Below the pieces are notes generated by a model that searched no databases, had not been told where the DNA came from, and was given only the letters and a program-made list of their open reading frames with translations. Source: a virus. From it: DNA of 20,377 bases. The translations under genes were made by a program, and so were the position numbers. Positions 1,629 through 20,073 of this stretch are shown here, in pieces. The stretch lies in the IMG/VR virus record IMGVR_UViG_3300031565_005284, positions 1-20,377 of that record. One strand, 5' to 3'. Position 1 is the first letter of the stretch; each line of letters opens with the position of its first letter.

Positions 1629-1674
1629 CGATGCTTCGTCTTGCCCGAAACGACCGCAACCTGATCGGAGTGTT

Positions 1675-2875: not shown

Positions 2876-3762
2876 CTTACGACATCATTATTCCCCATTT
2901 CGGCGCGCCGGAAGTGACGCCGCTGGCGATCAACTGCCTCGAATCGATTCGCGCCTACAGCGCCGAGTACCGGCTGATCTTCGTCGACAACGGGAGCCCC
3001 GCCGAGGAGTGGGAAAAGATCGACCCTTATGTTCGCAGCCATGAGCGCCTGAGCCTGCTCCGCAACACTAAGAACACGGGGTTCATCACGGCAGTCAACG
3101 AAGCGCTGGCGCTTTCCACGGCTCCCTATATCGTGCTGATGAACAACGACACCGAGGCCGTCGCTGGATGGCTTGAGAAGCTCCGTGCTGCTCTCGAGAA
3201 CCGTGTCGGCATGTCAGGGCCGCGGACAACCACGGCGCAAAGCTGGCAGGGCCGCTGGCAGGGCAGAAACGGCATTCAGATCCTTCAGCCCCAGGCGATG
3301 CTAGCTTTCTTTTGCGTGATGATGACGCGCCAAGTCTTCGAGACGATCGGCTATCTGGATCCGGCCTACGGAATGGGATTCGGCGACGATGACGATTACT
3401 GCCGGCGCGCGGTTCAGGGTGGCTTTCAATTGGCGCTGGTTCAGGATCTTGTCATTCCCCACCATCACCGTAGTACCTGGAAGTCATTGTATACAAAGGC
3501 GCAGATCGTCGCAATGCAGAATGGCGCGATGCGGCGCTTTGAAAAATGGGAGGGTTCCGTGAAACACGAACCGCTTCAGGCGCTCGGCGCTTGGCAACAT
3601 CTGGAAGGCGAGCCTTCCTCTCAGTCGCCTTGTTGCAACGTCAAAGTCGTCGGAGCCATTCAGGACAATCATGTACTCCTGGGCCGGTGCGCCCGGTGCA
3701 AGAGTGACATTTACACGCTCAACGTCAAGACCGGGCAGCTTCGCGGGAGGCTCCGGGCCTGA
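2872..3762 (+). CDS. Glycosyltransferase family 2 with C-terminal Cys-rich zinc-ribbon-like tail
   Basis: A 296-aa protein. Residues 1 to about 220 are a clear GT2 domain resembling rhamnosyltransferase-type enzymes: DIIIPHFG strand, FVDNGSP nucleotide motif, NTGFITAVNEAL, the DxD-equivalent MNNDT (Asp about 93), and GFGDDDDYCRRA as the catalytic-base region, followed by HHHRSTWKS. Residues about 250-296 form an extra tail with Cys 254, Cys 255, Cys 273 and Cys 276 (the last two as CARC), spaced like a small zinc ribbon. Such a tail is not a usual part of GT2 enzymes and might bind a partner or the acceptor. The ATG overlaps the preceding TGA as ATGA, and the next gene begins on this gene's stop (TGATG), so the three genes are tightly coupled. 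Confidence 0.85.
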   Translation: MTYDIIIPHFGAPEVTPLAINCLESIRAYSAEYRLIFVDNGSPAEEWEKIDPYVRSHERLSLLRNTKNTGFITAVNEALALSTAPYIVLMNNDTEAVAGWLEKLRAALENRVGMSGPRTTTAQSWQGRWQGRNGIQILQPQAMLAFFCVMMTRQVFETIGYLDPAYGMGFGDDDDYCRRAVQGGFQLALVQDLVIPHHHRSTWKSLYTKAQIVAMQNGAMRRFEKWEGSVKHEPLQALGAWQHLEGEPSSQSPCCNVKVVGAIQDNHVLLGRCARCKSDIYTLNVKTGQLRGRLRA

Positions 3763-4460
3763 TGGTTACGCTGCTTACTCCGACTGGAGGCAGGCCAGAA
3801 GCATTTGCTCTCCTCGAACGTTGGATCGAGCGGCAGACTTACCGGGGCGAACTGCAATGGATCGTGATCGACGACTGCATTCCGCACATGCGGTTGACTC
3901 TCGGCCAGGATCATCTTTATCCGGTTCCGATCTGGCAGCCGGGGCAGAATACCCAGGCACGTAACCTCAAGGCCGCACTGCCCTTCATCAAGGGGGAGTT
4001 CGTCCTGTTCATCGAGGATGATGATTACTATGCGCCGGCCTACATCGAGCAGATGGTCAATCGGTTGAAAGAAGCCCCCTTAGTCGGAGAGCAATGCACG
4101 GTTTTCTACAACGTCCGGTATCGCTCCTACTATGTCCATCCGAATCGATCGAGCGCCAGTCTGTTCCAGATGGGCTTCCGTGTTCAGCCGAATACCGCCG
4201 AACAGGTAGCGAGAGCCCTCGGAACGCCCGGTTACATCGACGCGGAACTTTGTGCCCGGTGTCGCGGCCAATTGCGAATGTTCGCGCGCCATGTTCCGGC
4301 TCTTTCGATTGGGATAAAGGGCCTCCCGGGACGCGAGGGCATCGGGAGCGGCCACGATCCGCACGATCTTTTCAGATCCGATCCGAACTTGTCGATGCTC
4401 CGACTATGGATTGGAGAGGACGCCGATCAATATGTGGCGTTCTATCGGCCACGGAGATAA
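3762..4460 (+). CDS. GT-A/GT2-like glycosyltransferase
   Basis: A 232-aa protein starting on the last base of the previous stop codon (TGATG), with GGGAGG 11 nt upstream. The N-terminal half fits a GT-A glycosyltransferase: VTLLTPTGGRPEAF first strand and loop, WIVIDDC nucleotide motif, ARNLKAALPFIKGEFVLF, and the metal motif IEDDDYY (Asp 86-88). The C-terminal half (about 110-232) is divergent, contains a CARC pair, and ends with GHDPHDLF and an Arg-rich tail. Donor and acceptor are unknown. It is the last enzyme of the glycan cassette before the small zinc-finger gene. Confidence 0.75.
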   Translation: MVTLLTPTGGRPEAFALLERWIERQTYRGELQWIVIDDCIPHMRLTLGQDHLYPVPIWQPGQNTQARNLKAALPFIKGEFVLFIEDDDYYAPAYIEQMVNRLKEAPLVGEQCTVFYNVRYRSYYVHPNRSSASLFQMGFRVQPNTAEQVARALGTPGYIDAELCARCRGQLRMFARHVPALSIGIKGLPGREGIGSGHDPHDLFRSDPNLSMLRLWIGEDADQYVAFYRPRR

Positions 4461-5063: not shown

Positions 5064-5489
5064 ATGGCCATCACCACCGCAAAAGGAACTCTTATCAAAA
5101 TCGGCGACGCGTCCAGTCCCGAACTCTTCGCTCCCATCGGTGAAGTACGCTCCATCGACGGGCCGGGTGCCAGTGCTGTCGTGCAGGATGTTACGACGCA
5201 CGCGACGTCCGGAAACTGGATGAACAAGCTGGCTACGCTGCTCGATCCGGGCAACGTCAGTTTCGCCGTCAATTTCGATAAGGACGATGCGACCCACGCC
5301 TTTGCTACTGGTATGTGGGCCGATTTCATCGCTTTGTTCAAGCGCAACTGGCAGGAGATCTTTCCGAACTCCGCAGGCCAGTTGGCGTTCGCCGGCTATG
5401 TTACCGGCCATCCGTTCGTGGCGCCGGTCGACAACGTGCTCCAGGCAAACATTGAGCTGGCACTGACCGGAGCGATCGAGGCCACGTAA
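5064..5489 (+). CDS. Phage major tail tube protein
   Basis: A 141-aa protein read as the tail tube subunit that polymerises into stacked rings around the tape measure. The evidence is positional and compositional. It lies directly before a tail chaperone pair and the tape measure gene, the canonical order in siphoviruses. It has the length (about 140 aa) and the beta-rich, Ala/Gly/Thr-rich character of lambda V-type tube proteins, and the N-terminal pattern TTAKGTLIKIGD...FAPIGEVRSIDGPG common to phage tube proteins (a short strand, then an 'E-V-x-S-I' loop). It has a perfect AGGAGG ribosome site. No cleavage site or membrane segment is seen. It could also be a major tail protein of another fold, but the role is well supported by context. 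Confidence 0.8.
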   Translation: MAITTAKGTLIKIGDASSPELFAPIGEVRSIDGPGASAVVQDVTTHATSGNWMNKLATLLDPGNVSFAVNFDKDDATHAFATGMWADFIALFKRNWQEIFPNSAGQLAFAGYVTGHPFVAPVDNVLQANIELALTGAIEAT

Positions 5490-5505: not shown

Positions 5506-6048
5506 ATGAGCAAGATCAAGTTGGGCGGGGTGACCCGCCCTCTCTATTTTGACCTGAACACCTACACGGCGTTCGAGGAAAAGACCGGGCAATTCTTTCT
5601 GGAGTCGATCGCACGGCTCCAGCAGGCGGTAAGCGCCGCCGAAGAAACCATCGGCACGCTGTCCAAGGATCCGGCACAGCAGCAAAAACAGCTCATCGAG
5701 AAGAACATGGCCGTCCTGCGACGTGTCAGCTTCAAGGACATTCACGCGCTGCTGTGGGCCGCTCTCCACGAATATGATCCGCGCAATCCTGAAGCGGAAC
5801 CGACCTGGCCGCTCAGCCATGCCGAAGTCGGGCGCATGGTGAACTTCCACAACCTGAGCGAAGTCATCAACATCGTGATGAACGGGATCACCGAGCACTA
5901 CCCGAATCAGGATGAGATGCCCCAGGAGGTTCCGACAGACGGCGACCGCCCTACCGAAAGCCCCTCACCCGCCGCGAGTGGTGGGGAAACGTCTTCGGGC
6001 TTGCCCGATTCCATTTCCGCGTCCCTCGAACTGAGTTCGGACGCCTGA
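5506..6048 (+). CDS. Tail assembly chaperone (gpG-like)
   Basis: A 180-aa protein in the position of lambda gpG between tail tube and tape measure genes. It acts in the cytoplasm and coats the tape measure during tail assembly; it is not part of the virion. Seen: a short N-terminal beta region (KIKLGGVTRPLYFDLNTY), helical central segments with FEEKTGQFF and RVSFKDIHALLWAAL, which resemble tail chaperone families, and a disordered Pro/Ser/Glu-rich C-terminus (about 140-180). That disordered end covers a region where the -1 frame is open and protein-like, as expected where the ribosome shifts to make a G-T fusion. AAGGAG precedes the ATG closely. Confidence 0.75.
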   Translation: MSKIKLGGVTRPLYFDLNTYTAFEEKTGQFFLESIARLQQAVSAAEETIGTLSKDPAQQQKQLIEKNMAVLRRVSFKDIHALLWAALHEYDPRNPEAEPTWPLSHAEVGRMVNFHNLSEVINIVMNGITEHYPNQDEMPQEVPTDGDRPTESPSPAASGGETSSGLPDSISASLELSSDA

Positions 6049-6315: not shown

Positions 6316-9300
6316 ATGACCAACGTAATCGCAGATCTGGCAGTGCGCCTTACGGCCAATATGTCGGATGTGAACGCCAAGTTCACGAAGTTGGATACCG
6401 ACCTGAAGACTGCCTCGTCGGGATTCACGGCGATAGGGGGCGATCTGACTTCGCTCGGCACCAAACTGTCGATTGGACTTACTGCACCATTGGTCGCTGC
6501 CGGCATCGCCGCATTCAATTTCAGTACCGACTTCAACGCGGCGATGGCGAACGTAGCGACGTTGATACCGGGCAATGTTGATCGCGTCGAGGAGTTGAAA
6601 ACCGCCGTGCAGAATATGGCGGTAGAGGTCGGCAAATCGACCGGCGACCTCGCGGGTGGTCTATATCAGATTATTTCGGCCTTCGGAGATTCTGCGGACA
6701 CAGCGCAATTATTGGAGATCAACGCGAAAGCAGCGGCCGCTGGACTCGCCACAACGACCGATGCCATCAACCTCACCAGTTCGGTCACCAAAGGCTATGG
6801 CGACGTGACTGCCGAGGCCGCGCAGAAGGCGGCGGATCTCGCTTTCCAGACGGTCAAGCTCGGGCAAACTACCTTTCCCGAGTTGGCAGCTTCCATCGGT
6901 AGGGTTGTCCCGATCGCCGCGACATTGGGAGTAACCCAGGAAGAATTATTCGCCGGCTTTGCAACGCTGACCGGTGTTACCGGAAACGCCTCGGAAGTTT
7001 CCACACAGCTTGCCGGGATTTTGCGGGCGATGATTAAGCCTACGGATGATATGTCGGAAGCTATCAACTCTTTGGGTTACGAGTCGGCGCAAGCAATGGT
7101 ACAAGACCTCGGACTCGTGGGCTCGCTGCGGGCGTTGATCGGCACGACTGACGGATCCCAGGAGGCCGTGGGTGAGTTGGTACAGCGCGCGGAAGCCCTG
7201 ACCTCTATCTTTGCCCTGAGTGGCGGGCAGGCTGAGACGTTCGATCAGAAATTGGCCGCGATGGCGGATACTACCGGAGTGGCGACCGAAGCGTTTCGGG
7301 AACAGACCGAGGGCATCAACGCGACTGGCTTTCAGTGGAATCAATTCAAAATTCGTATGACCGGCGTTGTTGAAAAACTTGGTGACGGGCTCTTGCCAGC
7401 GCTCTCAAAGTTGCTCGACCTTCTCGAGCCCGTCGTCGGATGGATCGGCGAGATGGCTGATAAGTTCGGCAATCTTCCGACGCCGATTCAAACTACCGTT
7501 ATTGCCGTGGTGGCGCTGGCTGCTGCCATCGGCCCGATGCTGATTGTCGCCGGTCAGTTGGTTACTGCGGTCGGTTCGATAATCCCCGTACTTACTAAAC
7601 TCATCGCAGTGACGGGGGGCGGATCTGCTGCGCTCATGGGCATTGCGAAGGCCGTGCCTGTGGCCGCCGCCGCTTTCGCTGGCTGGAAACTCGGCGAGTG
7701 GCTAAATTCCTTCACGAATGAGTACAAGGATGCCGAGGAAAAAGTACAGGCATTGAGCGATTCGCTCGAAGCACAGGGCGTCGTAATTGAACGCGGCGGA
7801 AAAAGCCTGAAGGACTGGGCCGCTGAGGTATTCAAGGCTAGCGAAGCCCTAGACGCGAACAAGAAGAGCACAGAAGCGGCAAAGGAAGCGACCAAAAAGG
7901 CAGCGGAAGCGGCCAAAAAGGCAGCGGAGGAACAGAAGAAGTTTACGGAGAAGCAGAAAGTAGCCGTCAAAACTGCTGCCGAGCTGGAAAAGGAACAAAA
8001 GGACCTAAATGAAGCCTATGACAAGTACCAAAAGTACCTGAAGGACGCGAAACGCGAGACGGCGCTCCATCAGACAGAGATCTGGAAGCTCAATCGGGAA
8101 ACGATCAAAGCGAAGGACGCGACGGCGCTGTTCTACCAGGGGCTGATTAAAGTCGGGGATGAGACGGTTGATTACACTGCCGTAGCCTATCGCCTGCGCG
8201 ATTCCCTCACGGCCATTGAAACTGCTGCGCTGGACGTGAAGGACATGATGCCTCCGTTCTCGCAGGCGATCAGTGACGCCATCGGCCTGTCCACTCCCCA
8301 GGTCAACAAGCTGGGCGACGCCATGAAGACGCTCGGGCTGGACTCCATCGCCTCGAAACAAACGATCGCCGAGCAGATGACGGCCGCCCGCGATGCCGTG
8401 CTAGGCAGCGGCGTGGCAACCGACTTCGAGAAACAAACCGCGATTTACCGGGCGCTGAAGGCTCAGGTCGACGCCGCGAAGGAAGCCGGGGTCGATATTC
8501 CGGCCGAGCAGCAGAAACTTCTCGATCAGCTTCGCACTGAACTCGAAGGGGATAAGGGAGTGTCGAGCCTGAAGAAGCCCTGGGACAGCCTGAAAAGCCA
8601 GGTATCGACGATCTTTACCGATCTCAGTAAAGATCTGAACGACATCCTTTGGGGCGAAGGCGGGGAGTCGATCAAGTCCAAGTTCCTCGGTATGTTCGAG
8701 TCGATGGGGCAGGCGGTAACCCGGTTCGTCATCGAGTATCTGGAGGGCAAACTGTTCAGCGCGTTTGCCAAGCTCCTCGATGATATTTTGCCGGCCATCG
8801 GTAAGGCGCTCGGCGGTCTGTTCGGCTTCGGTGGCGGCGCGGCGGCGGCTGCTGGAACAGCGGCTGGTACGGCTGCCGGCGGCGCAGCGGCGGGGGCTGG
8901 CGGCGCAGCGGGAACTGCGGTGGGCGCGGGCATCAGTGGGACACTCGGCGCTGTGTTCGGCGGGATCAGTGCGGCCACCGGCGTGATCGGCCTGTTTCAG
9001 AACGCAAAGCAGGAAACCACCCTTAATGCGATCGAAGAGAGCACACGGCGTTCCGCCCTCTACCTCGGCGACCGAGCCGATGGCGGCATCCTGGGCGTGC
9101 TCTTCAGTATCAACGAAGAATTGGCGTGGGGAGTTGGGACGAAAGCACTGGAACGGATCCGGGATGAAATGGTAAACCTAGGCGCGGGTTACATCAATCC
9201 GTCGCTCGATACCTTAAAGGACAATGCTGCGGCGATCAAATCCAGCCTGGAAGCTCTGGAAACCGTAGGCCTGAAAGTCACTCCAGAAGCCGATGTGCGC

Positions 9301-10035
9301 GACATAATTCCTCCTGATGTGTTCAGTGATATTGACGGCCACCTTACTATAATCTCCGACGAAATGAAACAGCTTGGTGCGGGTTACATCAACCCATCGC
9401 TGGATTCGATGAAGCAGGCGCTTTGGGATATTATCGCGCTCCTATCCGGTGGAATTGTCATATCCGATTCAGCGCTTTCAGCGTTGGAAGAGTTATCTAC
9501 TCCCACAATCCCGGAACCCATAATACCGCCACTATCCCCAGATCCTGGCCTAATGGGAAACATTACTGCCGCTGGACTTGCCAGCAATGCCCTGGCTTTC
9601 CGCGAGTGGACAGTTGAAATGCTGTCTTCGATTTCCTCTGCAATTACAACTCCTCCCGAACTTGACATTACGCCGCTTACTTCACTGCTAACCAGCATTG
9701 GGGCGAGACTCACCGAAATCTGGGATCGTATTGGAACACTCACGGACGTTCTGACCTTCCATGCCAAGGCGCTTTGCGCGGGCATCCTACCGCGTCTGGA
9801 TAAGTTGATCTTCCACACCGAGGCGCTCTGCGCGGACATTCTGCCACGTCTGGATGTTCTGAATCTTCAGACTGAGGCGCTCTACGCCGGCGTCGTCCCA
9901 CGGCTGGATCAGATCGCCAGCCAGCCGCGCGCTAACATCACGATCAACGTTGCGGTCGGAGGCACGTCTTCGACTGCCGACGATATCGCCAACGCGATCG
10001 CCAATAGTCTGCGCTCCCAAGGGCTTGCTTCTTAA
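6316..10035 (+). CDS. Tail tape measure protein
   Basis: A 1239-aa protein that sets tail length and occupies the tube lumen. It is the longest single-chain helical protein of the tail module and follows the G/GT chaperones. N-terminal residues 1 to about 300 look like the TP901-type core, with the repeated pattern of Gly/Ala-rich helices (SLGTKLSIGLTAPLVAAGIA, FSTDFNAAMANVA, VGKSTGDLAGGLYQ). A hydrophobic stretch lies at about 391-435. A highly charged Lys/Ala/Glu coiled coil spans about 465-600. A Gly/Ala-rich low-complexity and hydrophobic segment lies at about 836-895. The C-terminus carries two kinds of internal repeats (about 949-1033 and 1146-1199). At about 1.5 angstrom per residue it predicts a tail near 185 nm. 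No lytic transglycosylase or peptidase motif was recognised. No clear SD precedes the ATG. Confidence 0.9.
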   Translation: MTNVIADLAVRLTANMSDVNAKFTKLDTDLKTASSGFTAIGGDLTSLGTKLSIGLTAPLVAAGIAAFNFSTDFNAAMANVATLIPGNVDRVEELKTAVQNMAVEVGKSTGDLAGGLYQIISAFGDSADTAQLLEINAKAAAAGLATTTDAINLTSSVTKGYGDVTAEAAQKAADLAFQTVKLGQTTFPELAASIGRVVPIAATLGVTQEELFAGFATLTGVTGNASEVSTQLAGILRAMIKPTDDMSEAINSLGYESAQAMVQDLGLVGSLRALIGTTDGSQEAVGELVQRAEALTSIFALSGGQAETFDQKLAAMADTTGVATEAFREQTEGINATGFQWNQFKIRMTGVVEKLGDGLLPALSKLLDLLEPVVGWIGEMADKFGNLPTPIQTTVIAVVALAAAIGPMLIVAGQLVTAVGSIIPVLTKLIAVTGGGSAALMGIAKAVPVAAAAFAGWKLGEWLNSFTNEYKDAEEKVQALSDSLEAQGVVIERGGKSLKDWAAEVFKASEALDANKKSTEAAKEATKKAAEAAKKAAEEQKKFTEKQKVAVKTAAELEKEQKDLNEAYDKYQKYLKDAKRETALHQTEIWKLNRETIKAKDATALFYQGLIKVGDETVDYTAVAYRLRDSLTAIETAALDVKDMMPPFSQAISDAIGLSTPQVNKLGDAMKTLGLDSIASKQTIAEQMTAARDAVLGSGVATDFEKQTAIYRALKAQVDAAKEAGVDIPAEQQKLLDQLRTELEGDKGVSSLKKPWDSLKSQVSTIFTDLSKDLNDILWGEGGESIKSKFLGMFESMGQAVTRFVIEYLEGKLFSAFAKLLDDILPAIGKALGGLFGFGGGAAAAAGTAAGTAAGGAAAGAGGAAGTAVGAGISGTLGAVFGGISAATGVIGLFQNAKQETTLNAIEESTRRSALYLGDRADGGILGVLFSINEELAWGVGTKALERIRDEMVNLGAGYINPSLDTLKDNAAAIKSSLEALETVGLKVTPEADVRDIIPPDVFSDIDGHLTIISDEMKQLGAGYINPSLDSMKQALWDIIALLSGGIVISDSALSALEELSTPTIPEPIIPPLSPDPGLMGNITAAGLASNALAFREWTVEMLSSISSAITTPPELDITPLTSLLTSIGARLTEIWDRIGTLTDVLTFHAKALCAGILPRLDKLIFHTEALCADILPRLDVLNLQTEALYAGVVPRLDQIASQPRANITINVAVGGTSSTADDIANAIANSLRSQGLAS
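7888..7929 (+). repeat. 21-bp tandem repeat in the tape measure coiled coil
   Basis: Two adjacent 21-nt units (7888-7908 and 7909-7929) differ at few positions and encode the heptads ATKKAAE and AAKKAAE. One unit equals one heptad, so duplication would lengthen the coiled coil while keeping its register. Confidence 0.8.
9160..9414 (+). repeat. Pair of GAGYINPSLD repeats in the tape measure C-terminus
   Basis: The motif DEM-x2-LGAGYINPSLD appears twice, with Met codons at 9169 and 9364, 195 nt (65 residues) apart. The DNA copies differ mostly at third codon positions, so the repetition is kept at protein level. Confidence 0.8.
9751..9912 (+). repeat. Three 54-bp tandem repeats near the tape measure C-terminus
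   Basis: Three adjacent 18-codon units occupy 9751-9804, 9805-9858 and 9859-9912. Each unit carries the pattern (K/E)AL(C/Y)A-x-(I/V)(L/V)PRLD. The first two have Cys where the third has Tyr. The DNA has diverged at many third positions, so the array is not a very recent expansion. Confidence 0.9.
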
Positions 10036-10038
10036 ATC

Positions 10039-12360
10039 ATGCGTCTTTTCATCGAGATTGGCGACATCCCTCGTGGGAATCAGGTCTTGCTCGAGGGCTT
10101 CGACATCACTAAGGATCTCGGGGGCCGGATGGCTATGTGCCGGTTGCAAATGCTGGCCGATCCCTCCGAGCGGGCGGCGGTCGGTCTCGGTAAAGTCGGC
10201 AGCGCGGTCGTCGGTCAGTCGCCGAGCCCGTTTCAAGAAATCGTCATCAACGAAAACCTCGGAAGCTCCCCGCTCGGCGTTTACTTCGATGAGGCGACTT
10301 TTGACGAAGCGATCTTCGGCGGCGGTACCGGAGGCTCTCCGGTTGGCGATCGCCAGTTCGCGGGCTACGTTTCCGACGTTCGGCCTGAGTACCTCCGCTC
10401 CAATCCCGCCAAGATCAAGTACCACATCACTTGCCAGGATTACACCGTCCTTCTCGATAACACCGAAGTCACCGAGATCAGCTATTCAAACCAGACCGAC
10501 AAGGACATCATTCAGGCCGTTTTCACCGCCTACCTTCCGGAAGTCGATACGTCGCTCGTTTCCTCGCTGACCACGATCGAGACGTTCAATCTCGAGGGCG
10601 AGAGCCTCCGGACCTTCATGGAGAAGATCGCGGAGCTGACGGGCGCCGAGTGGTACCTCGACTTCGACAAGCGCCTCCGCTACTATTTGCCTTCCTCGAA
10701 CCCTGCCCCGTTTTCCCTCACCGAGACTCCCGATTACAGCACCAGTTTCGATTTCGACCGCAAGAGCTTCGACTATGCAGAGGATTTCCGGACGCCGGCA
10801 AACCGGGTGAAGGTGATCGGCGGGCTCAAAGAGAACGAAACCGCCTACACCGCGACGTCTCAGGATCTCAACAGCCAAGCCGCGTTTGGGAAAGTCTTCA
10901 GCCGGGTGATCGTCGATCGCAACATCGCCTCGGACACCGAGGCGCAGCTTCGCGCCCAGGTCGAAGTTCAGCGGTACGCCTTTCCGGAGAAAAACGGGAC
11001 GGTGACCTACCGGCGCGATGGCGTGAACATCGGCCAATTGCTCACCATCAACTCGCCGACGCGCGGGCTATCCGGTGACTTTCTAGTGCGAAAACTCTCG
11101 ATGCGCTGGAAAAATCCCTCGCTCACCGAGTACACCGCGGAGTTCGGCGACTACCGGCCCGATCTCGCCAAGACGCTGCGGCGGCTGAAGGAGTTGGCGA
11201 AGGAAAAAGCCCCGACGCCGCTGGCGAAGCCGGTTCAGAAATCGGTCTATGTCGATCACTTCGCGTCGACCATCGAGCCGGTGCAGATCGTCAATTCCCT
11301 GCCCTCGCTCCCGGATCCAAACTACAGCGCGAATGCCGTAGTCCTGCTCACCACGGACCGGAAGATCTACCGTAGGAACGGCGACGCTTGGACCGCCGTG
11401 GTTCCGACCACGGACCTCAGCGGAACGATCATCGAAACGCAGATCGCCAACGATTCAATCTCGACGCCAAAGCTTCAGGCTCTTTCGGTAACCTCAGGCA
11501 TTCTCGCCGCCAATTCGGTCATCGCCGGGAAGGTTGCGGCTGACGCCGTGACTGCCGGGACGATTGCCGTGGGTGCGATTCGTGCCATCGATGCGGTTTT
11601 TGATTCCGGCGCGATCCAGAGCGCCGACATCGGCAACGCGCAGATTAACAATGCTCACATCGTCAGCTTGGGCGCTTCGAAACTCACAGCAGGAACGATT
11701 GACGCCAGTGTCATCACGGTCACGAATCTAAACGCCTCAAATATCACGACGGGCACGTTGAGCGGTAGCTACCTCGATGATGGGACGGTTGCTGACATTA
11801 AGATCGCCTCGGGCCTGAGCGCCACGAAGATCACCACAGGTACCCTCGACGCCTCCGTCGTGAGCGTGACGAACCTGAATGCCTCGAACATCACAACCGG
11901 ATCGATGGCTGCTGATCGCATTGGAGCAGGAACGATGGATGTAGGCAGCGGCGGGCTGACGATCAACGGAACAGGTAGCGTGACCGTAGCCTACAACGTC
12001 AGGGCGACCGACTTCAAGAGTAAGACCAGCGGAAATTTGGTCATCAACTCGTCTGATGAGTTTGTCGGCACCAATGTCAAGACCGGAGGCACTGGAGCAA
12101 CCGGCAGTGTTCAGACAAACTCCCTGAACGTCGGCGGCGCACAACGTATCGATTCCACCGGGGCGGGCAATCTCGCAACGGTCCAATGTGGGGCCTGGGC
12201 GAACTCTTCCGAATATCGGGTGGGAACCATAAAAGTAGTCGGGGCTCAGGGTTCCGCCATCGGCAACCCGACAGGCGGGACCACAGTGGACACGGAGGCC
12301 CGAGCCGTGATTGTGAGCATTCTCGGGGCCATCCGTACCCACGGCTTGATCGCAACGTAA
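10039..12360 (+). CDS. Baseplate hub / tail tip protein fused to fibre-like C-terminus
   Basis: A 773-aa protein starting 3 nt after the tape measure stop, in the position of the tail hub (gp27-, late D- or gpJ-type). Residues 1 to about 390 are beta-rich with hub-like features: FIEIGDIPRGNQVLLEGFDI, the insertion GDRQFAGYVSDVRP, YHITCQDYTVLLDN, a central SLRTFMEKIAELTGAEWYLD typical of hub second domains, and NRVKVIGGLKENE. A Pro/Lys linker (about 390-405) leads to a repetitive C-terminus (about 440-690) of T-x-G-T-I-x-A-S and NLNASNITTG units, as in gpJ-like central fibres, ending in a small globular cap. It would close the tail tube and project toward the cell surface. The assignment is from order and motif style; no enzymatic residues were recognised. 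No SD is seen, suggesting coupling to the tape measure gene. Confidence 0.7.
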   Translation: MRLFIEIGDIPRGNQVLLEGFDITKDLGGRMAMCRLQMLADPSERAAVGLGKVGSAVVGQSPSPFQEIVINENLGSSPLGVYFDEATFDEAIFGGGTGGSPVGDRQFAGYVSDVRPEYLRSNPAKIKYHITCQDYTVLLDNTEVTEISYSNQTDKDIIQAVFTAYLPEVDTSLVSSLTTIETFNLEGESLRTFMEKIAELTGAEWYLDFDKRLRYYLPSSNPAPFSLTETPDYSTSFDFDRKSFDYAEDFRTPANRVKVIGGLKENETAYTATSQDLNSQAAFGKVFSRVIVDRNIASDTEAQLRAQVEVQRYAFPEKNGTVTYRRDGVNIGQLLTINSPTRGLSGDFLVRKLSMRWKNPSLTEYTAEFGDYRPDLAKTLRRLKELAKEKAPTPLAKPVQKSVYVDHFASTIEPVQIVNSLPSLPDPNYSANAVVLLTTDRKIYRRNGDAWTAVVPTTDLSGTIIETQIANDSISTPKLQALSVTSGILAANSVIAGKVAADAVTAGTIAVGAIRAIDAVFDSGAIQSADIGNAQINNAHIVSLGASKLTAGTIDASVITVTNLNASNITTGTLSGSYLDDGTVADIKIASGLSATKITTGTLDASVVSVTNLNASNITTGSMAADRIGAGTMDVGSGGLTINGTGSVTVAYNVRATDFKSKTSGNLVINSSDEFVGTNVKTGGTGATGSVQTNSLNVGGAQRIDSTGAGNLATVQCGAWANSSEYRVGTIKVVGAQGSAIGNPTGGTTVDTEARAVIVSILGAIRTHGLIAT
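11686..11907 (+). repeat. Pair of 75-bp repeats in the hub fibre region
   Basis: Units at 11686-11760 and 11833-11907 each encode 25 residues, reading T-x-GT(I/L)DAS followed by TNLNASNITTG. They are 147 nt apart in phase. Synonymous differences between copies indicate protein-level conservation of a fibre repeat. Confidence 0.85.
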
Positions 12361-12801
12361 TCAGTTGGTTTCGTTCACTTCGATCAGCCGTGTCGCCGCC
12401 GTTGCCTTGAGTGGCGTTATAAGGATCGATCGGACCTGGACCTTACCGACCAGGAACAGATGGTTTGTCCACTCCGGTTGATCCCGATAGTGCCGTGGTA
12501 CAAAGTCCATCCGACAGAGATCTCTCCCCAATTGGTCGCGATAATTCAATGTGATCGAGAGCGCTTCCGTCTCATTATCGGAGATGTAGACGGCAACCCA
12601 AATACCTTCTTGGGCCTGTTGGGGTGCGGGTGCAATCCAGATGCCGCCTCGCTGTGGCTGCTGGAATAGACGTATCAGCCCGGTTGTACTCCAGTGATAC
12701 CAGTGGACGGTCAGGCTATCCGATCCCTGCGCTCGGATTTGCGGAACGACGGCGATCAACGCGATCACGATCAGGATCGTAATTCTTTGAAGGATTTTCA
12801 T
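12361..12801 (-). CDS. Small exported protein, reverse strand (moron-like)
   Basis: A 146-aa protein on the strand opposite to all surrounding tail genes. Its stop codon abuts the stop of the hub gene. The N-terminus is a clear Sec signal peptide: MKILQR, a hydrophobic core ITILIVIALIAVV, and a cleavage site after QIRA. The mature part of about 120 residues is probably beta-rich (alternating LTVHWYHWST, GGIWIAPAP, GIWVAVYIS, ALSITLNYR) and has one Cys. No family is recognised. A GGGAG lies 8-9 nt upstream of the ATG and a promoter-like sequence lies about 50 nt upstream, so it can be expressed independently of the late operon. Such morons are often expressed from prophages and change the host envelope; that role is an inference here. 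Confidence 0.7.
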   Translation of the reverse strand: MKILQRITILIVIALIAVVPQIRAQGSDSLTVHWYHWSTTGLIRLFQQPQRGGIWIAPAPQQAQEGIWVAVYISDNETEALSITLNYRDQLGRDLCRMDFVPRHYRDQPEWTNHLFLVGKVQVRSILITPLKATAATRLIEVNETN

Positions 12802-12900: not shown

Positions 12901-13200
12901 TTGGCATTAAAGAAGATCGAGCATGAAATCCAGAATCCCTGGCGGGTTCACATCCGCGAGGTTCTCGGCCAGATCCAGCAGGGCGAGGGTCTGATCCTCC
13001 AGTTGCGGGGCCGGATCGCCCTTGTCGAGCAGGACATCGCCTTCATGCGCCGGCATCTCGGCGTGCTCCTGGCGCAGATCGCCCAGGCCGACGAGTTGCC
13101 GAAGCCGGAAGGCGAATACAGCCTGAGCGCGGACGGCAGCAAGATTCTGGGCGTGTTTCAGGACGACAAGGAGGATCAACCCGATGGCGTGGCCGAATAA
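12901..13200 (+). CDS. Small coiled-coil hypothetical phage protein
   Basis: A 99-aa protein from TTG 12901, or 110 aa if the GTG at 12868 is used. Residues about 3-58 form a predicted amphipathic helix with hydrophobic residues in heptad-like spacing (VLGQIQQGEGLILQLRGRIALVEQDIAF), suggesting a coiled coil. The end is short and acidic (DDKEDQPD). No signal peptide or membrane segment is seen. It restarts the + strand tail module after the reverse-strand insertion and overlaps the next gene by 17 nt, so it is probably a minor tail or assembly protein. Its function is not recognised. Confidence 0.6.
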   Translation: MALKKIEHEIQNPWRVHIREVLGQIQQGEGLILQLRGRIALVEQDIAFMRRHLGVLLAQIAQADELPKPEGEYSLSADGSKILGVFQDDKEDQPDGVAE

Positions 13201-13447
13201 TTGGACTGACAGCGAGACGATGACACAGGCGCGTCTTACCGAATGGACGAACGCGATCAAGCAGTGGGGCGACGACGTGGATACCAATGGCTACGGTGTG
13301 ATCGTCGAGTCCTCCGCACCGACCGATGGCGACATTCCGACGCGCGGCGTCGTGTTCTACCTCGATGAGACAGCGCACGCTCTCAAGGTGCGTGTCCGGT
13401 ACAGCGACGGCTCGACGCTCAAGAGCGGCTCCGTCACCCTCACCTGA
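13184..13447 (+). CDS. Small hypothetical phage protein
   Basis: An 87-aa protein with no recognised family. AAGGAGG lies 9 nt before the ATG inside the upstream gene. The N-terminal third is helical and Trp-rich (WPNNWTDSE, ARLTEWTNAIKQWGDD). The C-terminal part is beta-like (RGVVFYLDETAHALKVRVRY, then SDGSTLKSGSVTL), a style common in small proteins next to phage fibre genes. It is probably a structural or fibre-accessory protein, based only on position and composition. Confidence 0.6.
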   Translation: MAWPNNWTDSETMTQARLTEWTNAIKQWGDDVDTNGYGVIVESSAPTDGDIPTRGVVFYLDETAHALKVRVRYSDGSTLKSGSVTLT

Positions 13448-13460: not shown

Positions 13461-15818
13461 ATGAAGCGACTATTTCTGTTCCTGTTGGCGACGGGGCTGT
13501 TGTGCGCGCAGACGGCGAAGTTCCCCTCGGCCATCGCGACAGACAACGATCTTCTCGTAGGTAAGGACCGTTCCGCCAGCACGCTGTCGAGCGGCATCGA
13601 TGCCAGCACGCTCTCGATCCCGGTGGTCGACGGTTCTGTGTTCGTGCAAGACGAAGTGATCACCATCGATCAGGAGCAGATGCTGCTCTGCTCGGTCGCC
13701 GGCAACACGCTCACCGTCTGTTCCGGGGGTCGCGGATTCGCGGGTACCAGTGCGACGACTCATGACTCCGGCGCGAACGTCCGGGGCCACATTACCGCGT
13801 GGCACCATAACGCGCTGCGGGAAGAGGTCCAGGCCATCGAAGCGCAGATTGGAACGACGATGACGACCTGCACGGCGGGCCGCGTCTTCTTCGCGGGTTC
13901 CAGTGGCGTTGTCGATTGTTCGGGAAACCTTACATGGGATGGCTCGACGTTGACAGCTTTCAGTGGCAGCTTCTACGATTCGACGCCGACTACGGGGAGT
14001 ACGACGCTCGCGATCAGGGCCGGCGCGGGTCAAAGCACTACCAATCTCCAGGAGTGGCGAAATAATGCTGATTCCATCATAGCCAGAATCACAAATACTG
14101 GCATGTTGGTTGGTCCCGGTTACAACGACATCACGGCGAAGATCAGCGTCGAAAGCGCGGGTATGTATCTCGCCAACGACAGGCAGTTGAATTTTTCCTC
14201 GACGACGGCCTACGGGGGTACGGTGGATCTCGCACTGTTCCGTAATAGTGCCGGGTTGTTGGAAGTCAATAGTGGCACCTCCGGCCAACTCCGCGACTTC
14301 AAACTGCGCCGACTCTGGGCAGCGGCGGATTCGGCGCCCTCCTGTACCAGCGGAAATTACGGTCTCTACGCGGACAGCGGTTCGTCGATCTGGAAGAAAT
14401 GCACGAACGGCACAATCACCGATCTCGATACAGGAGCTGGCGCGGCTTACTACCAGACTGTACAGGATGAAACCACCCCGCTCACACAACGTCCGACGAT
14501 CAACTTCACCGGTACCGGAGTGACGTGCGCCGATAATGCGGGAGCCACGCGAACCGATTGCACGATCGCAGGCGGCGGCTCCGCGACCCGATATGAGCTT
14601 GAGGTCACCCGCACCGACGCCGACACCCTGACGATCAACCCGAGCTGTTCTTCGTCCACGCCCTGTAACATCAAGGGCAATCAGTTTACCTCCTCGGCCA
14701 CCGTGGACATCACATCGGGGTCGGCTTCGGACACGACTTACATCTATTTGGATACGACTGGCGCGATCATCGTCGGTTACAACGCGGCGAACACATACAC
14801 TTGCTCCGGTTGCACATCCACAAGCGGAATCACTTCCTTTCCTTCGTCGGCGGTGCCGGGGTATGTCTGGCCGGTGACAACCGCGACGTTTGATTCGACC
14901 CTTGCCACATTCGACAAACGCTCGTTCCTCTACGAGAAAGAGGCTGTCGCAGGTACCGGCGTGTCCATCACTGACACCTACGGGAAGGCGACCATCTCCC
15001 TTGACACGGCTGTCGTCCCGTTCTATTCCACGGGGGCCGGAGTGCCCTCGGGAGCCTGCACTGAGGGAACGCTGTTCTATCTGGACACGACCAACCACAA
15101 TGGCTACTACTGCACCGACACCGACACCTGGGAGCAGATCGACGGCGCGGGCGGCGGCGGTTATGCCACGATTGACGACGAAGACACTCCACTAACGCAG
15201 CGGACGACGCTCAACTTTGCCGGTGCGGGCGTGACTTGCGCCGACGATACCAACCAGACGACTTGCACGATCCCAGCCCTGGAGGCCACCACGATACGTC
15301 AGGTGTACAACCTCTCCATGCCGACCTGTAGCGCCACTCCAAGCGTCGTGGGTTATGGGGTCTGGACGCTGGATGCTACGAACGGGGCAGCCGTTAGTTG
15401 TACCGGGCCGAGTATTGCCTACGACGACGCCGCGACGGGAAAACGGGCCTTTACTCAAGTCATCCTTCCGGCGAATTGGTCTTCAGGTGACGCCGTGGAT
15501 GCGGTTCTGTACTACACCACTAATTATCTCGGTGGAAGCCCGCAAACCAAGTTCTTCGTAGAAACAGCGTGTAGGGCGGGTGGCGAATCTAACTCGTGGA
15601 GCTACAACACGGCGGCGTCGCAGACCGGGAGCGCCGGAACCGACACCGTGATCTACAGCATGACCGTCTCCAGTATCCCCATGACGAACTGTGCTGCTGG
15701 CGAGGCGATGCGCGTCCAACTTCGCAGGGCGGATTCCGCCGACGAAGGGGACACGCTGGACGCGAAGATTGCTTATGTCGTTGCATTCCAACTTCGTTAC
15801 AAGGTGACGGTGAACTAA
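13461..15818 (+). CDS. Large fibre-like protein with N-terminal signal peptide
   Basis: A 785-aa protein that starts with MKRLFLFLLATGLLCAQ, a typical Sec signal peptide (Lys/Arg, hydrophobic core, cleavage after CA). The Cys is not in a lipobox because Leu precedes it. The mature part begins with a segment common in phage tail proteins: IATDNDLLVGKD, VDGSVFVQDEVITID, GGRGFAGTSATTHDSGA, and HITAWHHNALREEVQAIEAQIG. Beta-rich repeats follow, including two copies of a module with TPLTQR and GAGVTCADD-like sequence. The many Cys residues in CTI, CAD and CTG contexts would suit disulphide formation outside the cytoplasm. The likely role is tail fibre or host-range protein, but an export signal is abnormal for a virion protein made in the cytoplasm. 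Its stop overlaps the next ATG (TAATG). Confidence 0.65.
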   Translation: MKRLFLFLLATGLLCAQTAKFPSAIATDNDLLVGKDRSASTLSSGIDASTLSIPVVDGSVFVQDEVITIDQEQMLLCSVAGNTLTVCSGGRGFAGTSATTHDSGANVRGHITAWHHNALREEVQAIEAQIGTTMTTCTAGRVFFAGSSGVVDCSGNLTWDGSTLTAFSGSFYDSTPTTGSTTLAIRAGAGQSTTNLQEWRNNADSIIARITNTGMLVGPGYNDITAKISVESAGMYLANDRQLNFSSTTAYGGTVDLALFRNSAGLLEVNSGTSGQLRDFKLRRLWAAADSAPSCTSGNYGLYADSGSSIWKKCTNGTITDLDTGAGAAYYQTVQDETTPLTQRPTINFTGTGVTCADNAGATRTDCTIAGGGSATRYELEVTRTDADTLTINPSCSSSTPCNIKGNQFTSSATVDITSGSASDTTYIYLDTTGAIIVGYNAANTYTCSGCTSTSGITSFPSSAVPGYVWPVTTATFDSTLATFDKRSFLYEKEAVAGTGVSITDTYGKATISLDTAVVPFYSTGAGVPSGACTEGTLFYLDTTNHNGYYCTDTDTWEQIDGAGGGGYATIDDEDTPLTQRTTLNFAGAGVTCADDTNQTTCTIPALEATTIRQVYNLSMPTCSATPSVVGYGVWTLDATNGAAVSCTGPSIAYDDAATGKRAFTQVILPANWSSGDAVDAVLYYTTNYLGGSPQTKFFVETACRAGGESNSWSYNTAASQTGSAGTDTVIYSMTVSSIPMTNCAAGEAMRVQLRRADSADEGDTLDAKIAYVVAFQLRYKVTVN
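14457..15275 (+). repeat. Two copies of a TPLTQR fibre module
   Basis: Segments at about 14457-14570 and 15168-15275 encode related modules of about 36 residues: D-E-x-TPLTQR, then NF-x-G-x-GVTCAD, then a Cys-Thr-Ile ending. The second copy is shorter by about two residues. This points to modular growth of the fibre. Confidence 0.8.
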
Positions 15819-18800
15819 TGCGCTGGCTGGCTGCACTTCTGGCGTTGCCGCTTGCGGCAGCGGTTGACAACCTGCGGGTGGTGGACACGACCGCCACGCA
15901 AGCCATCATCTCATACGCCGCGCCGGACACAAGCGCCTGCACGGTCGAGATCAGCGAAGACCCCAGTTACTCGCCCGTGGTCCATGACGTGAACGCGACA
16001 TTGTTCTCCGGGTCCAACAGCGACTCACGAACCGGGAACATCACCCTCGGGCGGCACCGGACAATCACCATCGGGCAACGAAAGGTCGAGACGGCCTCCG
16101 ACGACAAGAACTACAGCCGCGCCCTTGAGACGGATCGCCTGCACTACGGTCGGGTGACCTGCGGCGGTGACCAAACCACATTCACCTTTCGCACCCGCAA
16201 TATCCCGTTTGGCGACAGTCACGGCGCAGGGGTGATGCAGGCCATGAGCGACGGTTCCGGCAGACCGTTGATTCCGAGCGTCAACTACACGACCCGCACC
16301 AAAATCATCGACCCGCTCACGGGCGTTCCCATGTGGCCGATTATGATGCCACGTGACTACACGACGGATCAGACCTTCTCGGTGGATACCTGTTCGGGAA
16401 CGGGATGGAGCGGCGTCTGCCAGGTGGTGACTGATGACAGCACTTACGCTTCGACCTCGACCACTAATCCCTTGCTGGTGGTGGCAAACATCACGGCGTT
16501 CAGCTACGGGCAGAGCGGCATAGACGTGATGGACTTCGTGCAGTTCCCAATCAACGGATATGGAGCCGGGGGCACGGAGGCGCAACGTACCGTCAATGTC
16601 TGCCTGACGCGGGATAACGGTCAGACCTGTAGCCCGACGCAACAGGTAGTCCTGCCGGCCACGGACGGCAATGTGACGGCAGGCACCGGGACGGCGGGAG
16701 ATTGGTGGGAACCCGGCGTCTGGCATCACCAGGGGAACACGCGGGGGGCGGGATGGGTCAAGACGGCCTCCTCGACGCCGACCACCTCTGTCACGTTCAC
16801 GACCTCGACCGACTGCAACCGGCTCCGGGTAGGCAGTGTCGTTCAAGTGTTCCCCGACGGTTCCACCACGAAGACTTATCTCACCGTGCAGTCCTTGGAA
16901 TGTCCTAGTGCCGTAGTGGATTCGGAGGTCAACCTGTACAACGGAGGCTTGGGCGTTCCATTCCTCATCGCGGGCGGAATCCAGAACAACAAGGGCTTCG
17001 GTCTGAAGATTTGGAAGGCGAACGACGACGGCCAGGCGATCTATATTGACCGGACGCAGGTAACGGTTGGGCGCACGTCGAACTTCTATAATGGTAGCGC
17101 CGGGTTTCACAACACATGCTCAAAGAAGGACACTGCGAACGGCGGATGGTACAAGTGCATTGCCAGTAACTCGGGTAATCCAGCCACCGAGATGTACGCC
17201 ATTCGAGAAACTGCCAGCGGCGTTCCGGAGATCCGCAATATGGGTGCGGTTCGTTTCACCGGCTCCTTGGTCGGATGCACCGGATACGCCTATCCAATCA
17301 CGTTTGGTTTCGGAGCAAGACCTTGGGACGGTTCCGACTCGAATGTGATATGGGCCACATGCAACGACGATCTAATCAAGGCGACTTTCACCAACACAAG
17401 TTACACCGAGAAAGACCCCGGCGGTATTCCCATCGCGGACTTCTCGCTGGTAAATATCAGTGACTCCTACACGATCAGTTCCCTAATCTCGGCTTTCGCC
17501 AGCGCCAACGATATCTGGTACGAGCCGTACTACGGGACATCTTGGGGGATGGAAGCGGTTCAAGGCAACTATGTCATCCTCGGCAATCGCATGGGGCAAC
17601 AGGACAGCTTCGCGTGGATTGCAGTTCTCGACACCGGGAACAAGCTCCCCCTTGGAAGTGGCTGGGTGGGCAGCTTGGGCGGAACTAATCCCGAGGCGAC
17701 GGATGGCACCGGGTTCGTCAAGGCTATGGCCTCGCTGTTTGATCGTTCGGCGTCCCGCTGGAACACTCTTCACACATTTGAGTGGGTGGGGCACGAGCCG
17801 GTCATGTGTCCCGAGGTCCAGACGGCGGGCAAGGCAACTGCCTTCGGTATCGGCCCTTATAAGACTACGCTCAAAACAGCGATGACTTCTTGTAATCCGT
17901 GCGGGGAAGAAGACATCGATGTTGATAGCACCTGGGACACGACCACCTACCGGACCCCAACGTGGGGGCCGACCGCGCTCAACAGCAGTGGAACAACCGT
18001 CACCCCGGCAAGCGGGAACATCAAAGAGCACCTGTATATTGGAAGCAAAATCAAAGCGAATCCCGGTGGCGGCGATGAGATCCGAACCGTGACAGCGGTG
18101 AGCGGGAACTCAGTCACCATCGATACGGCGTTCAGTAGTGACCTTTCAAGTACCGCTTTCACGTACACGTTTCCCACTGCCCCCGCTTGGTGGCATGTCG
18201 GCGACCCCATCGGTGACCGGGCGCCGTGGGCGCTCCTGAAGGTTGATGCCGGCGATCGAATCCAGATCGACAGCGAGTATGTAACCGTTGTTTCACGGAC
18301 GGAGAACGCTGAAGACCTAACTATTCGCGTCCAGAGGAGCGGAAGCCAGCCAGCCCACAACATTGATGCAGTCATCAATATGCGCGGCAAGGCAGGCTAC
18401 GCTAATTACTGGTACTTCACGTTGGATCGGAACGCCAGCACCAGCACCTACTATGCGCCCTACGACGCGCTCAATATTGGGCACGGAACTTACGGGAACG
18501 GGATTCGGGTTCAGTCCAATCACAGTATCCAGGTTGCCGACATCAAAGACTACACGAACTGGAACCAACAGACGCATTCCATCAGCAAGGCTCCTAACTT
18601 TGCTGGGAAGCACGCTCCCGCTGATGGAAACTCCTACCAGTCGCACCCTTCCAATATCCAGTACGAAGCCACCGGCAATCTGACCAAGACATTTTACGAT
18701 CTAACGCCATTCCAGGGAACCAACCTGTTCTCCGTCCAGAACAACACGGCGGCAACGAGGGTGTCCGGGTTCACGCACGTCTACAAGTACCTCTACGGGC

Positions 18801-19645
18801 AATCACGCGCCATGTACACGAAGCATCTGGACACATGGGCCGTGGCTGGAGCGCGACTGCTCACCGACATCAGCGGCCCAGGCAGTTCGATCACGGACAG
18901 CGACAGGTACAAGTATTGTGTTGCGACTGTGGCCAACGAGTGTGTCACCGGGTCGGCGGTGGGGGATATCTACCTCAATGTTCCGAACCTTGTGCAGACC
19001 TACCGCTACTGCGCTGCTGGCGAAGTGTCGACGCTTGGTCCGGACTGGGACGATGCCTGCGCCGGGGAGAAGTCGATGGCGGGGCACGTCACAATTCAGT
19101 TCGGCGTGTTTGGCCCCGTCAATGACACCGTAGCCAGCCATGGACGGGTGCTCGAAACCCAGTTTACCGGCCTCCGGTATTCGACCACCGCAAATGCGCG
19201 TCCGTTGCCAGATGCGTCCCTTGCGGTGTTCAGCGCACAGAACGGCAATCGTAATTTCTTCATGCTGCTAAAGATTCCACCGCTGCCGCCACGGGATTCC
19301 GTGAACCGCAGCACGTTCATCCCGATTCCGGTGCAACTCAGCCCGCCCGCCAGCCTCAGCGTGAACAACGCCATCGTGGAGTTCGGCTACGACACCAATT
19401 TCTACTGTACGTCCCGCTTGGAGGCGTGCGTCGCCAACGGCTCGACGGTCAACGAGACGACGCCGTTCACCTGGCCCACGGAGGCGGGTGGCGAATCTAG
19501 CATCACGGGGGTCTCATGCGCCTCGGGCTGCACGGTGACTGTCCCGGCCTTCTCGCAACGGGTCCTGTATTACCGCTGGAAGTACCGCAACGCCAGCAAT
19601 GTAGTTCTCGCCACCAGTTCTACGCAAGTCATGGCGGTGCCTTAA
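15818..19645 (+). CDS. Very large exported protein of bacterial-secreted type, phage tail-linked
   Basis: A 1275-aa protein starting on the last base of the previous stop (TAATG). The N-terminus MRWLAALLALPLAAAV is a Sec signal peptide. Residues about 18-80 resemble a fibronectin type III-like or Greek-key start (DNLRVVDTTATQAIISYAAP, then CTVEISEDPSYS). The bulk is beta-rich and Ser/Thr/Asn/Gly-rich, with many Trp/Tyr and repeated short motifs, but no catalytic signature was recognised. The last about 110 residues (from PVQLSPPASLSVNNAIVEFG through CTSRLEAC to CSSGCT-like CASGCTVTVPAF and RVLYYRW) resemble the C-terminal tails of secreted Solibacter-type proteins, recalled from memory. It may be a receptor-binding or surface-displayed protein. 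An alternative is a host gene captured by the phage. Confidence 0.6.
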   Translation: MRWLAALLALPLAAAVDNLRVVDTTATQAIISYAAPDTSACTVEISEDPSYSPVVHDVNATLFSGSNSDSRTGNITLGRHRTITIGQRKVETASDDKNYSRALETDRLHYGRVTCGGDQTTFTFRTRNIPFGDSHGAGVMQAMSDGSGRPLIPSVNYTTRTKIIDPLTGVPMWPIMMPRDYTTDQTFSVDTCSGTGWSGVCQVVTDDSTYASTSTTNPLLVVANITAFSYGQSGIDVMDFVQFPINGYGAGGTEAQRTVNVCLTRDNGQTCSPTQQVVLPATDGNVTAGTGTAGDWWEPGVWHHQGNTRGAGWVKTASSTPTTSVTFTTSTDCNRLRVGSVVQVFPDGSTTKTYLTVQSLECPSAVVDSEVNLYNGGLGVPFLIAGGIQNNKGFGLKIWKANDDGQAIYIDRTQVTVGRTSNFYNGSAGFHNTCSKKDTANGGWYKCIASNSGNPATEMYAIRETASGVPEIRNMGAVRFTGSLVGCTGYAYPITFGFGARPWDGSDSNVIWATCNDDLIKATFTNTSYTEKDPGGIPIADFSLVNISDSYTISSLISAFASANDIWYEPYYGTSWGMEAVQGNYVILGNRMGQQDSFAWIAVLDTGNKLPLGSGWVGSLGGTNPEATDGTGFVKAMASLFDRSASRWNTLHTFEWVGHEPVMCPEVQTAGKATAFGIGPYKTTLKTAMTSCNPCGEEDIDVDSTWDTTTYRTPTWGPTALNSSGTTVTPASGNIKEHLYIGSKIKANPGGGDEIRTVTAVSGNSVTIDTAFSSDLSSTAFTYTFPTAPAWWHVGDPIGDRAPWALLKVDAGDRIQIDSEYVTVVSRTENAEDLTIRVQRSGSQPAHNIDAVINMRGKAGYANYWYFTLDRNASTSTYYAPYDALNIGHGTYGNGIRVQSNHSIQVADIKDYTNWNQQTHSISKAPNFAGKHAPADGNSYQSHPSNIQYEATGNLTKTFYDLTPFQGTNLFSVQNNTAATRVSGFTHVYKYLYGQSRAMYTKHLDTWAVAGARLLTDISGPGSSITDSDRYKYCVATVANECVTGSAVGDIYLNVPNLVQTYRYCAAGEVSTLGPDWDDACAGEKSMAGHVTIQFGVFGPVNDTVASHGRVLETQFTGLRYSTTANARPLPDASLAVFSAQNGNRNFFMLLKIPPLPPRDSVNRSTFIPIPVQLSPPASLSVNNAIVEFGYDTNFYCTSRLEACVANGSTVNETTPFTWPTEAGGESSITGVSCASGCTVTVPAFSQRVLYYRWKYRNASNVVLATSSTQVMAVP

Positions 19646-20073
19646 TCGGGGCTCGGCTTGGTTTGCAATGCCAAGCCGATCAGATCGCGGTGTTCGGATG
19701 TGAGTTCGGCGAGGGCCAGGAAGAAATTACGATCTTCCTCGGTCTTACTCAATCCCGCCAGCAGCAAGCACGCAAACGAACCAGGTTTGCGGTTTTGCTG
19801 GAGCCAATTCCCGACTGTTCCGTGTGCCAGCTTCAATGTTTCGGAGAGTTCCTGTTGCGTGAGTCCCAGGGCCTTTTTGAGTGCGCGTATGCGATCTTTC
19901 ACGACTTTCCGGCGCTGCCACTCATTGTGCGGAATTTCCTTTTCCCTTTTTGGGGTTATGGTCAATGGCGGAACGCTTTGATGGGGCGTTTTGAGCTGGC
20001 GTTGTTGATTTCGCAATCTCATTTCGGTCTCGTTTTCCCGAATCCTTTGTTCCCTTGGTCGGCGCTTCGCCAT
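19642..20073 (-). CDS. XRE-type helix-turn-helix DNA-binding protein
   Basis: A 143-aa reverse-strand protein. Residues 1-55 are strongly basic and polar (MAKRRPREQR...). The HTH domain lies at about 60-105: RIRALKKALGLTQQELSETL provides helices 1 and 2, and the recognition helix follows in AHGTVGNWLQQNRKP, a classical XRE/Cro-CI pattern. A short helical C-terminus follows (LALAELTSEHRDLIGLAL). It is likely a transcription regulator, possibly of phage lifestyle genes. The basic arm could add nonspecific DNA binding. Its stop overlaps the stop of the 1275-aa gene by two bases (convergent). A purine-rich ribosome site (GGGGAAAGG) precedes the ATG. It lies downstream of the 79-aa gene on the same strand and may be cotranscribed with it. 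Confidence 0.75.
   Translation of the reverse strand: MAKRRPREQRIRENETEMRLRNQQRQLKTPHQSVPPLTITPKREKEIPHNEWQRRKVVKDRIRALKKALGLTQQELSETLKLAHGTVGNWLQQNRKPGSFACLLLAGLSKTEEDRNFFLALAELTSEHRDLIGLALQTKPSPD
19653..19679. terminator. Perfect 9-bp hairpin at the convergent gene ends, possible terminator
   Basis: TCGGCTTGG (19653-19661) pairs perfectly with CCAAGCCGA (19671-19679) across a 9-nt loop. It lies 7 nt after the end of the tail-operon stop codon and inside the last codons of the reverse HTH gene. No T-run follows on either strand, so classical intrinsic termination is not clear. It may act with Rho or be a chance coding palindrome. Confidence 0.35.

Follow-up and report, generated by a model that had tools for sequence, protein, structure and literature searches.

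Virions of tailed phages are taken to be made entirely in the cytoplasm. The coat proteins of filamentous phages are virion proteins that are exported by Sec, the general secretion pathway, before assembly. Other proteins with signal peptides have also been described: the mosaic adhesive trimer (MAT) fibres of Bdellovibrio are bacterium-encoded adhesins with a signal peptide (PMC10769870), and Porphyromonas gingivalis phages encode signal-peptide proteins of unknown function that are reported as likely modifiers of the host (PMC10367356). Here we describe two adjacent genes, P1 and P2, in the tail region of the linear 20,377-bp IMG/VR virus record IMGVR_UViG_3300031565_005284 (referred to over its whole length as the window). 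Both products begin with a predicted Sec signal peptide and are rich in paired cysteines. The combination of leader and paired Cys recurs in other uncultivated phages, which points to fibre production, in some phages, in a compartment apart from the rest of the particle. No earlier report of exported Cys-paired phage fibres was found in the searchable literature, which leaves most subscription papers and preprints outside its reach.

A preliminary description of this DNA had proposed clean signal peptides on P1 and P2 at supported starts, and this assignment holds. The P1 start lies behind AGGAGG with a 6-nt spacer, the P2 start is coupled to the P1 stop through TAATG, and both leaders have the features of Sec substrates of signal peptidase I, namely positive charge in the n-region, a hydrophobic core without charged residues and small residues at the cleavage site. 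Placement of the P1 cut is our own judgement, the automatic cleavage call having picked a later site; cleavage before Gln17 would put Leu at −3. By inspection, neither leader ends in a lipobox ([LVI][ASTVI][GAS]C), since that of P1 reads TGLLC (Leu at −1) and that of P2 is free of Cys, and no further membrane segment was found in mature P1 or mature P2. P1 has 21 Cys in 785 amino acids (aa) and P2 has 23 in 1275, together 44 in 2060 aa, a contrast of about 10-fold with the four upstream tail proteins (5 in 2333 aa). Close pairing of these Cys residues exceeds that of random placement in both proteins (p=0.002 for P1, p=0.003 for P2). Judged from sequence features, export and cleavage of P1 and P2 are very probable.

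The association between leaders and Cys pairs was examined using a 42-aa module, module 1 (GYATxQDEGTPLTQRTTxNFxGxGVTxxDNxGxTRTDxTI), which occurs twice in P1. Viral contigs and genomes were scanned for this module and yielded 70 distinct scorable open reading frames (ORFs), of which 26 are leader-bearing; leaders were called on simple gene calls with a home-made rule in which Cys plays no part. Module 1 exists in a Cys-pair form (GVTCxDN...TDCTI) and a Cys-less form (GVTAxDN...TDVTL). A leader is present in all 18 ORFs with the Cys pair, compared with 8 of the 52 Cys-less ORFs (p=7e-11, the ORFs not being independent). When the proteins were grouped by coverage-based whole-protein similarity after masking of the module, the Cys pair was present in 17 of 25 leader-bearing clusters and in none of 38 leaderless clusters (p=1e-9). 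If proteins could be linked through the shared module or through low-complexity repeats, the set collapsed and p was 0.03-0.04; we regard the coverage-based clustering as fairer. Counted by copy, the pair occurs in 24/37 modules of leader-bearing ORFs versus 0/66 of leaderless ones, and no copy carries a single Cys. An AlphaFold2 model from an alignment of 41 copies is a hairpin with strands at 32-37 and 42-47 (predicted local distance difference test score, pLDDT, about 80-86 locally), in which Cys34 stands opposite Cys45 by strand register as a cross-strand neighbour. The simplest reading is that the module-1 disulfide is useful, and found, only where a leader directs the protein into an oxidising compartment. 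The earlier argument from Cys-rich composition to such a compartment thus gains support, both from this association and from the local Cys pairing in P1 and P2.

DNA patterns for a further module of P1, module 4, found one new locus, which is leader-bearing, and a control pattern matched nothing. A second module, RGxxGTxAxxHxxGAxV, is very common and mostly leaderless; the rule flags 7 of 100 scorable ORFs, and about four leaders are convincing by eye, that of P1 among them. Three further leader-bearing proteins with this second module (L091, L103 and L125) are without a Cys pair.

The leader rule called 2 of 204 interior Met residues of leaderless fibre ORFs, a false-positive rate of about 1%. 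Among other same-strand ORFs, strict calls were made for 14 of 377 in leaderless contigs, as compared with 47 of 210 in leader-bearing contigs. Gln occupies position +1 in 25 of 94 predicted cleavages, with leaders drawn from all loci, versus 3.6% after interior [AVS]xA, and the cleavage call used for this count gave no reward to Gln. The enrichment resembles the Q-rule for signal peptidase substrates of Bacteroidetes (PMC5837995).

From its residue 5, mature P1 matches the N-terminus of L138 (39% identity over 127 aa, E 3e-22), a 690-aa leaderless beta-helix tailspike (L138:405-2477) whose gene adjoins that of an SU10-adaptor, or head-tail adaptor. The initiator Met of L138 stands a few residues before the shared domain, where mature P1 begins, and Ser and Ala take the positions of Cys77 and Cys87 of P1. 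In an orthologous trio of the exported type, L010, L011 and L211, the leaders have diverged and the junction between cleavage site and mature protein is conserved (A/NSLLLDATTK); L213, a leaderless homologue of the trio in siphophage record MW202497, begins at their mature start. Homologues without a hydrophobic leader had been named in the preliminary description as evidence against export. They do occur (L138, L213 and many module-1 proteins), but they are without the Cys pair and start at the mature N-terminus where this is visible, which fits a leader added in front of a virion-type fibre domain and not a spurious one.

Family searches place a siphophage tail module on the + strand of the window, 5' of P1 and P2 and on their strand. 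The earlier view that the two are tail-linked is borne out by the major tail protein, phrog_2115, tape measure and hub-like genes that precede them. In other contigs, leader-bearing genes often form runs inside structural operons, after an internal virion protein, major head protein or tape measure. Five follow a podophage internal virion protein in L045; three lie at the contig end after head genes in L048; at least seven follow a tape-measure-like gene in L037 (5003-18022); and L059 has four large ones, one of them for a collagen-like tail fibre (phrog_5073, E 4e-41). About six lie in the tail region of L004 (MW202637, 409-6073), a Manatee Spring siphophage record, and one of their products, of 489 aa, has a lipoprotein-like LGAMGC motif. 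In L032 (7290-11902), the major head protein and tape measure genes are separated by two large genes with leaders and a small lipoprotein-like gene, an unusual position for fibres. Domains recognised in these runs, several of them weakly, are right-handed beta-helix, immunoglobulin-like, chondroitinase-B-like and GDSL-like. The L037 contig is binned as Phycisphaeraceae; among 294 genomes of the phylum of its metagenome-assembled genome only that genome matched, so that L037 does not establish a host. Every recognised fibre or spike candidate is leader-bearing in G299 (40 kb, with terminase and internal virion protein) and G300 (49 kb, with portal, protease, major head protein and tape measure); in G299 two large ORFs (568 and 785 aa), and in G300 a hub-like ORF of 1490 aa, have no informative family match and could hide a leaderless receptor-binding protein. 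No isolated phage with leader-bearing homologues was found, the few matches being metagenome-assembled phages.

On balance we lean towards the view that the Sec signals are functional, and that their carriers are fibres or spikes of the virion which acquire their fold and disulfides outside the cytoplasm and become attached to particles at lysis or later. Computation supports the leaders, cleavage-site signature, Cys pairing and operon position of both proteins and, for P1 only, a virion-type N-terminal domain. In vivo, export, cleavage, disulfide formation and virion attachment, with its timing, would presumably run as follows. P1 and P2, as fibre- or spike-type proteins of the late tail operon with working Sec signal peptides, would be translocated while head and tail tube assemble in the cytoplasm, and host signal peptidase I would remove the leaders. 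The mature chains would fold in the periplasm or outside, with local Cys pairs becoming disulfides, and the mature fibres would meet finished particles once lysis opens the envelope, attaching through the fibre N-terminal domain. Because both head and tail are built in the cytoplasm, fibres that had been exported could be added only at lysis or later; in other phages, fibres and spikes can attach to finished particles. We infer that the mature proteins are virion parts because P1 has a tailspike N-terminal domain, because of where the genes lie in the operon, and because G299 and G300 offer no evident alternative. Of the fates considered in the preliminary description, namely joining tails outside, staying on the host or binding after lysis, genome context favours those that make a virion part.

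Several observations weigh against this interpretation. Module-1 copies are mutually related, and the leaderless proteins may belong to other hosts, so host lineage could account for some of the link between leader and Cys pair. The pair is absent from 13 of 37 module-1 copies in leader-bearing ORFs, among ORFs of leader-bearing contigs that have no module the Cys difference did not reach significance (p=0.26), and the second module, with too few leader-bearing ORFs for a decision, gave p=0.14. AlphaFold2 gave a poor model of whole P1 (pLDDT 39). No domain shared with virion fibres or spikes was found in P2, which has no relatives in viral contigs, phage records or fetched loci and no family match, so that only leader, Cys pairing and position speak for it. 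There was no significant match to a Pfam family, S74 included, in P1 or P2.

The main rival is that P1 and P2 are exported and are not virion proteins at all. They might act on the infected or lysogenic host as adhesins at its surface, as decoys or maskers of the receptor, or as secreted depolymerases. There are precedents, for exported tail-region proteins in lambda Lom (PMC12309495), for signal-peptide proteins of unknown role in the P. gingivalis phages (PMC10367356) and for signal-peptide-bearing, phage-fibre-like adhesins in Bdellovibrio (PMC10769870). The window itself encodes a CI-like repressor, as well as glycosyltransferases by which the host surface might be changed, and some leader-bearing neighbours are enzyme- or adhesin-like. 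However, this rival sits poorly with a P1 N-terminal domain that is also that of a leaderless tailspike, with the tight packing of the genes among virion genes of the same strand, and with promoter-like sites near P1 at the shuffled background; moreover, G299 and G300 are without a recognised leaderless fibre or spike, though the phage needs one. We consider it unlikely, though deserving of serious attention. A hydrophobic N-terminus used for something other than export, as raised in the preliminary description, would be retained, for example as a membrane-inserting or -tethering peptide in assembly or DNA injection. Some leaders (L004, L005, L006) are short and without a clear cleavage site, as might be expected of such a peptide, but the +1 Gln enrichment, the conserved junction behind diverged leaders, the coupling of leaders to Cys pairs and the local pairing all disfavour it, and we regard it as improbable. 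Misplaced starts, or N-termini that are hydrophobic by chance in a host lineage rich in Cys, which the home-made rule and simple gene calls might admit, are very hard to reconcile with the strong Shine-Dalgarno sequence and stop-start coupling in the window, a false-positive rate of about 1%, 26 module-carrying ORFs with a leader and the 10-fold Cys contrast inside the window.

Features of the window are listed in Table 1. Two small ORFs and one opposite-strand ORF lie between the hub-like gene and P1; the opposite-strand ORF is without a family match. A promoter of their own for P1 and P2 was considered and rejected, promoter-like sites near P1 being no higher than the shuffled background. 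Four family-2 glycosyltransferase genes and a methyltransferase gene are clustered at 344-4460, directly 5' of the tail genes, and a comparable glycosyltransferase/methyltransferase-like run was seen by eye near a leader-bearing tail gene in L207. A CI-repressor-type helix-turn-helix gene (PF07022) at 19642-20073 (−), directly 3' of P2, hints at a temperate phage.

Table 1. Coordinates of P1, P2 and neighbouring features in the window.
Feature	Position	Strand	Remarks
Major tail protein	5064..5489	+	PF16460 just below cut-off; phrog_158
Tail protein phrog_2115	5506..6048	+	
Tape measure protein	6316..10035	+	PF10145
Baseplate hub-like/tail protein	10039..12360	+	PF05954, below cut-off
146-aa ORF with third predicted leader	12361..12801	-	MKILQRITILIVIALIAVVPQIRA/QGSDS; clear leader, Gln at +1
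110-aa ORF 5' of P1	12868..13200	+	
87-aa ORF	13184..13447	+	Overlaps 110-aa ORF; ends 13 nt before P1
Shine-Dalgarno AGGAGG of P1	13449..13454	+	6-nt spacer to ATG at 13461
P1, leader-bearing fibre-like protein	13461..15818	+	785 aa
P1 predicted signal peptide	13461..13508	+	MKRLFLFLLATGLLCA; cut before Gln17, then QTAKF
P1 predicted mature N-terminal peptide			QTAK/FPSAIATDNDLLVGK
P1 N-terminal domain, phrog_7578-like	13521..13901	+	Carries Cys77/Cys87
P1 module 1, copy 1	14448..14573	+	Cys356/Cys367 pair
P1 module 4	15018..15143	+	Cys533/Cys551 pair; common to leader-bearing L048, L073, L076
P1 module 1, copy 2	15159..15278	+	Cys593/Cys602 pair
P1 C-terminal domain	15282..15815	+	Homologous to L045 fibre C-terminus
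P2, leader-bearing protein	15818..19645	+	1275 aa; ATG overlaps P1 stop (TAATG), translationally coupled
P2 predicted signal peptide	15818..15862	+	MRWLAALLALPLAAA, then VDNL

A broader proposal is that virion construction is divided between two compartments in a widespread class of tailed phages. Head and tail would be made in the cytoplasm, and disulfide-bonded fibres and spikes, exported by Sec and then processed and oxidised in the envelope, would be joined to the particle only once lysis brings the two together; we advance this tentatively, as a little short of an even chance. If fibres are routinely exported and oxidised first, views of assembly order, of fibre stability in soil and water and of the annotation of phage 'secreted' genes would change. 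A search for leaders with Cys pairs could then reveal the receptor-binding proteins of phages of uncultivated hosts, and recombinant forms would have to be produced in the periplasm. Should the proteins instead remain on the host, a large group of surface proteins encoded by phages has been filed as tail fibres.

The MAT fibres share with P1 a signal peptide and have a conserved, beta-rich domain of about 130 aa after the leader, where P1 has its domain of about 127 aa, the two being likened by description only. They are, however, the bacterium's own adhesins, whereas the P1 and P2 genes lie in a phage tail operon, and the S74 tip was not found in P1 or P2 by Pfam search, NS74 tips being outside the comparison. 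Among leaderless fibres and tailspikes, L138 shares the P1 N-terminal domain and L003 (MW202697) shares module 1, in a like operon setting, but both are without leader and Cys pair and presumably fold in the cytoplasm. The P. gingivalis phage proteins are phage-encoded Sec substrates, some with Gln at +1, as here, although the cited portion of that report draws no link to tail fibres or Cys pairs (PMC10367356). Lambda Lom has a signal peptide and a gene among tail genes, as do P1 and P2, but it is an outer-membrane beta-barrel expressed in lysogens, and P1 and P2 have no such Pfam match. Finally, the whole virion of a filamentous phage assembles at the membrane, whereas here only the fibres would be exported.

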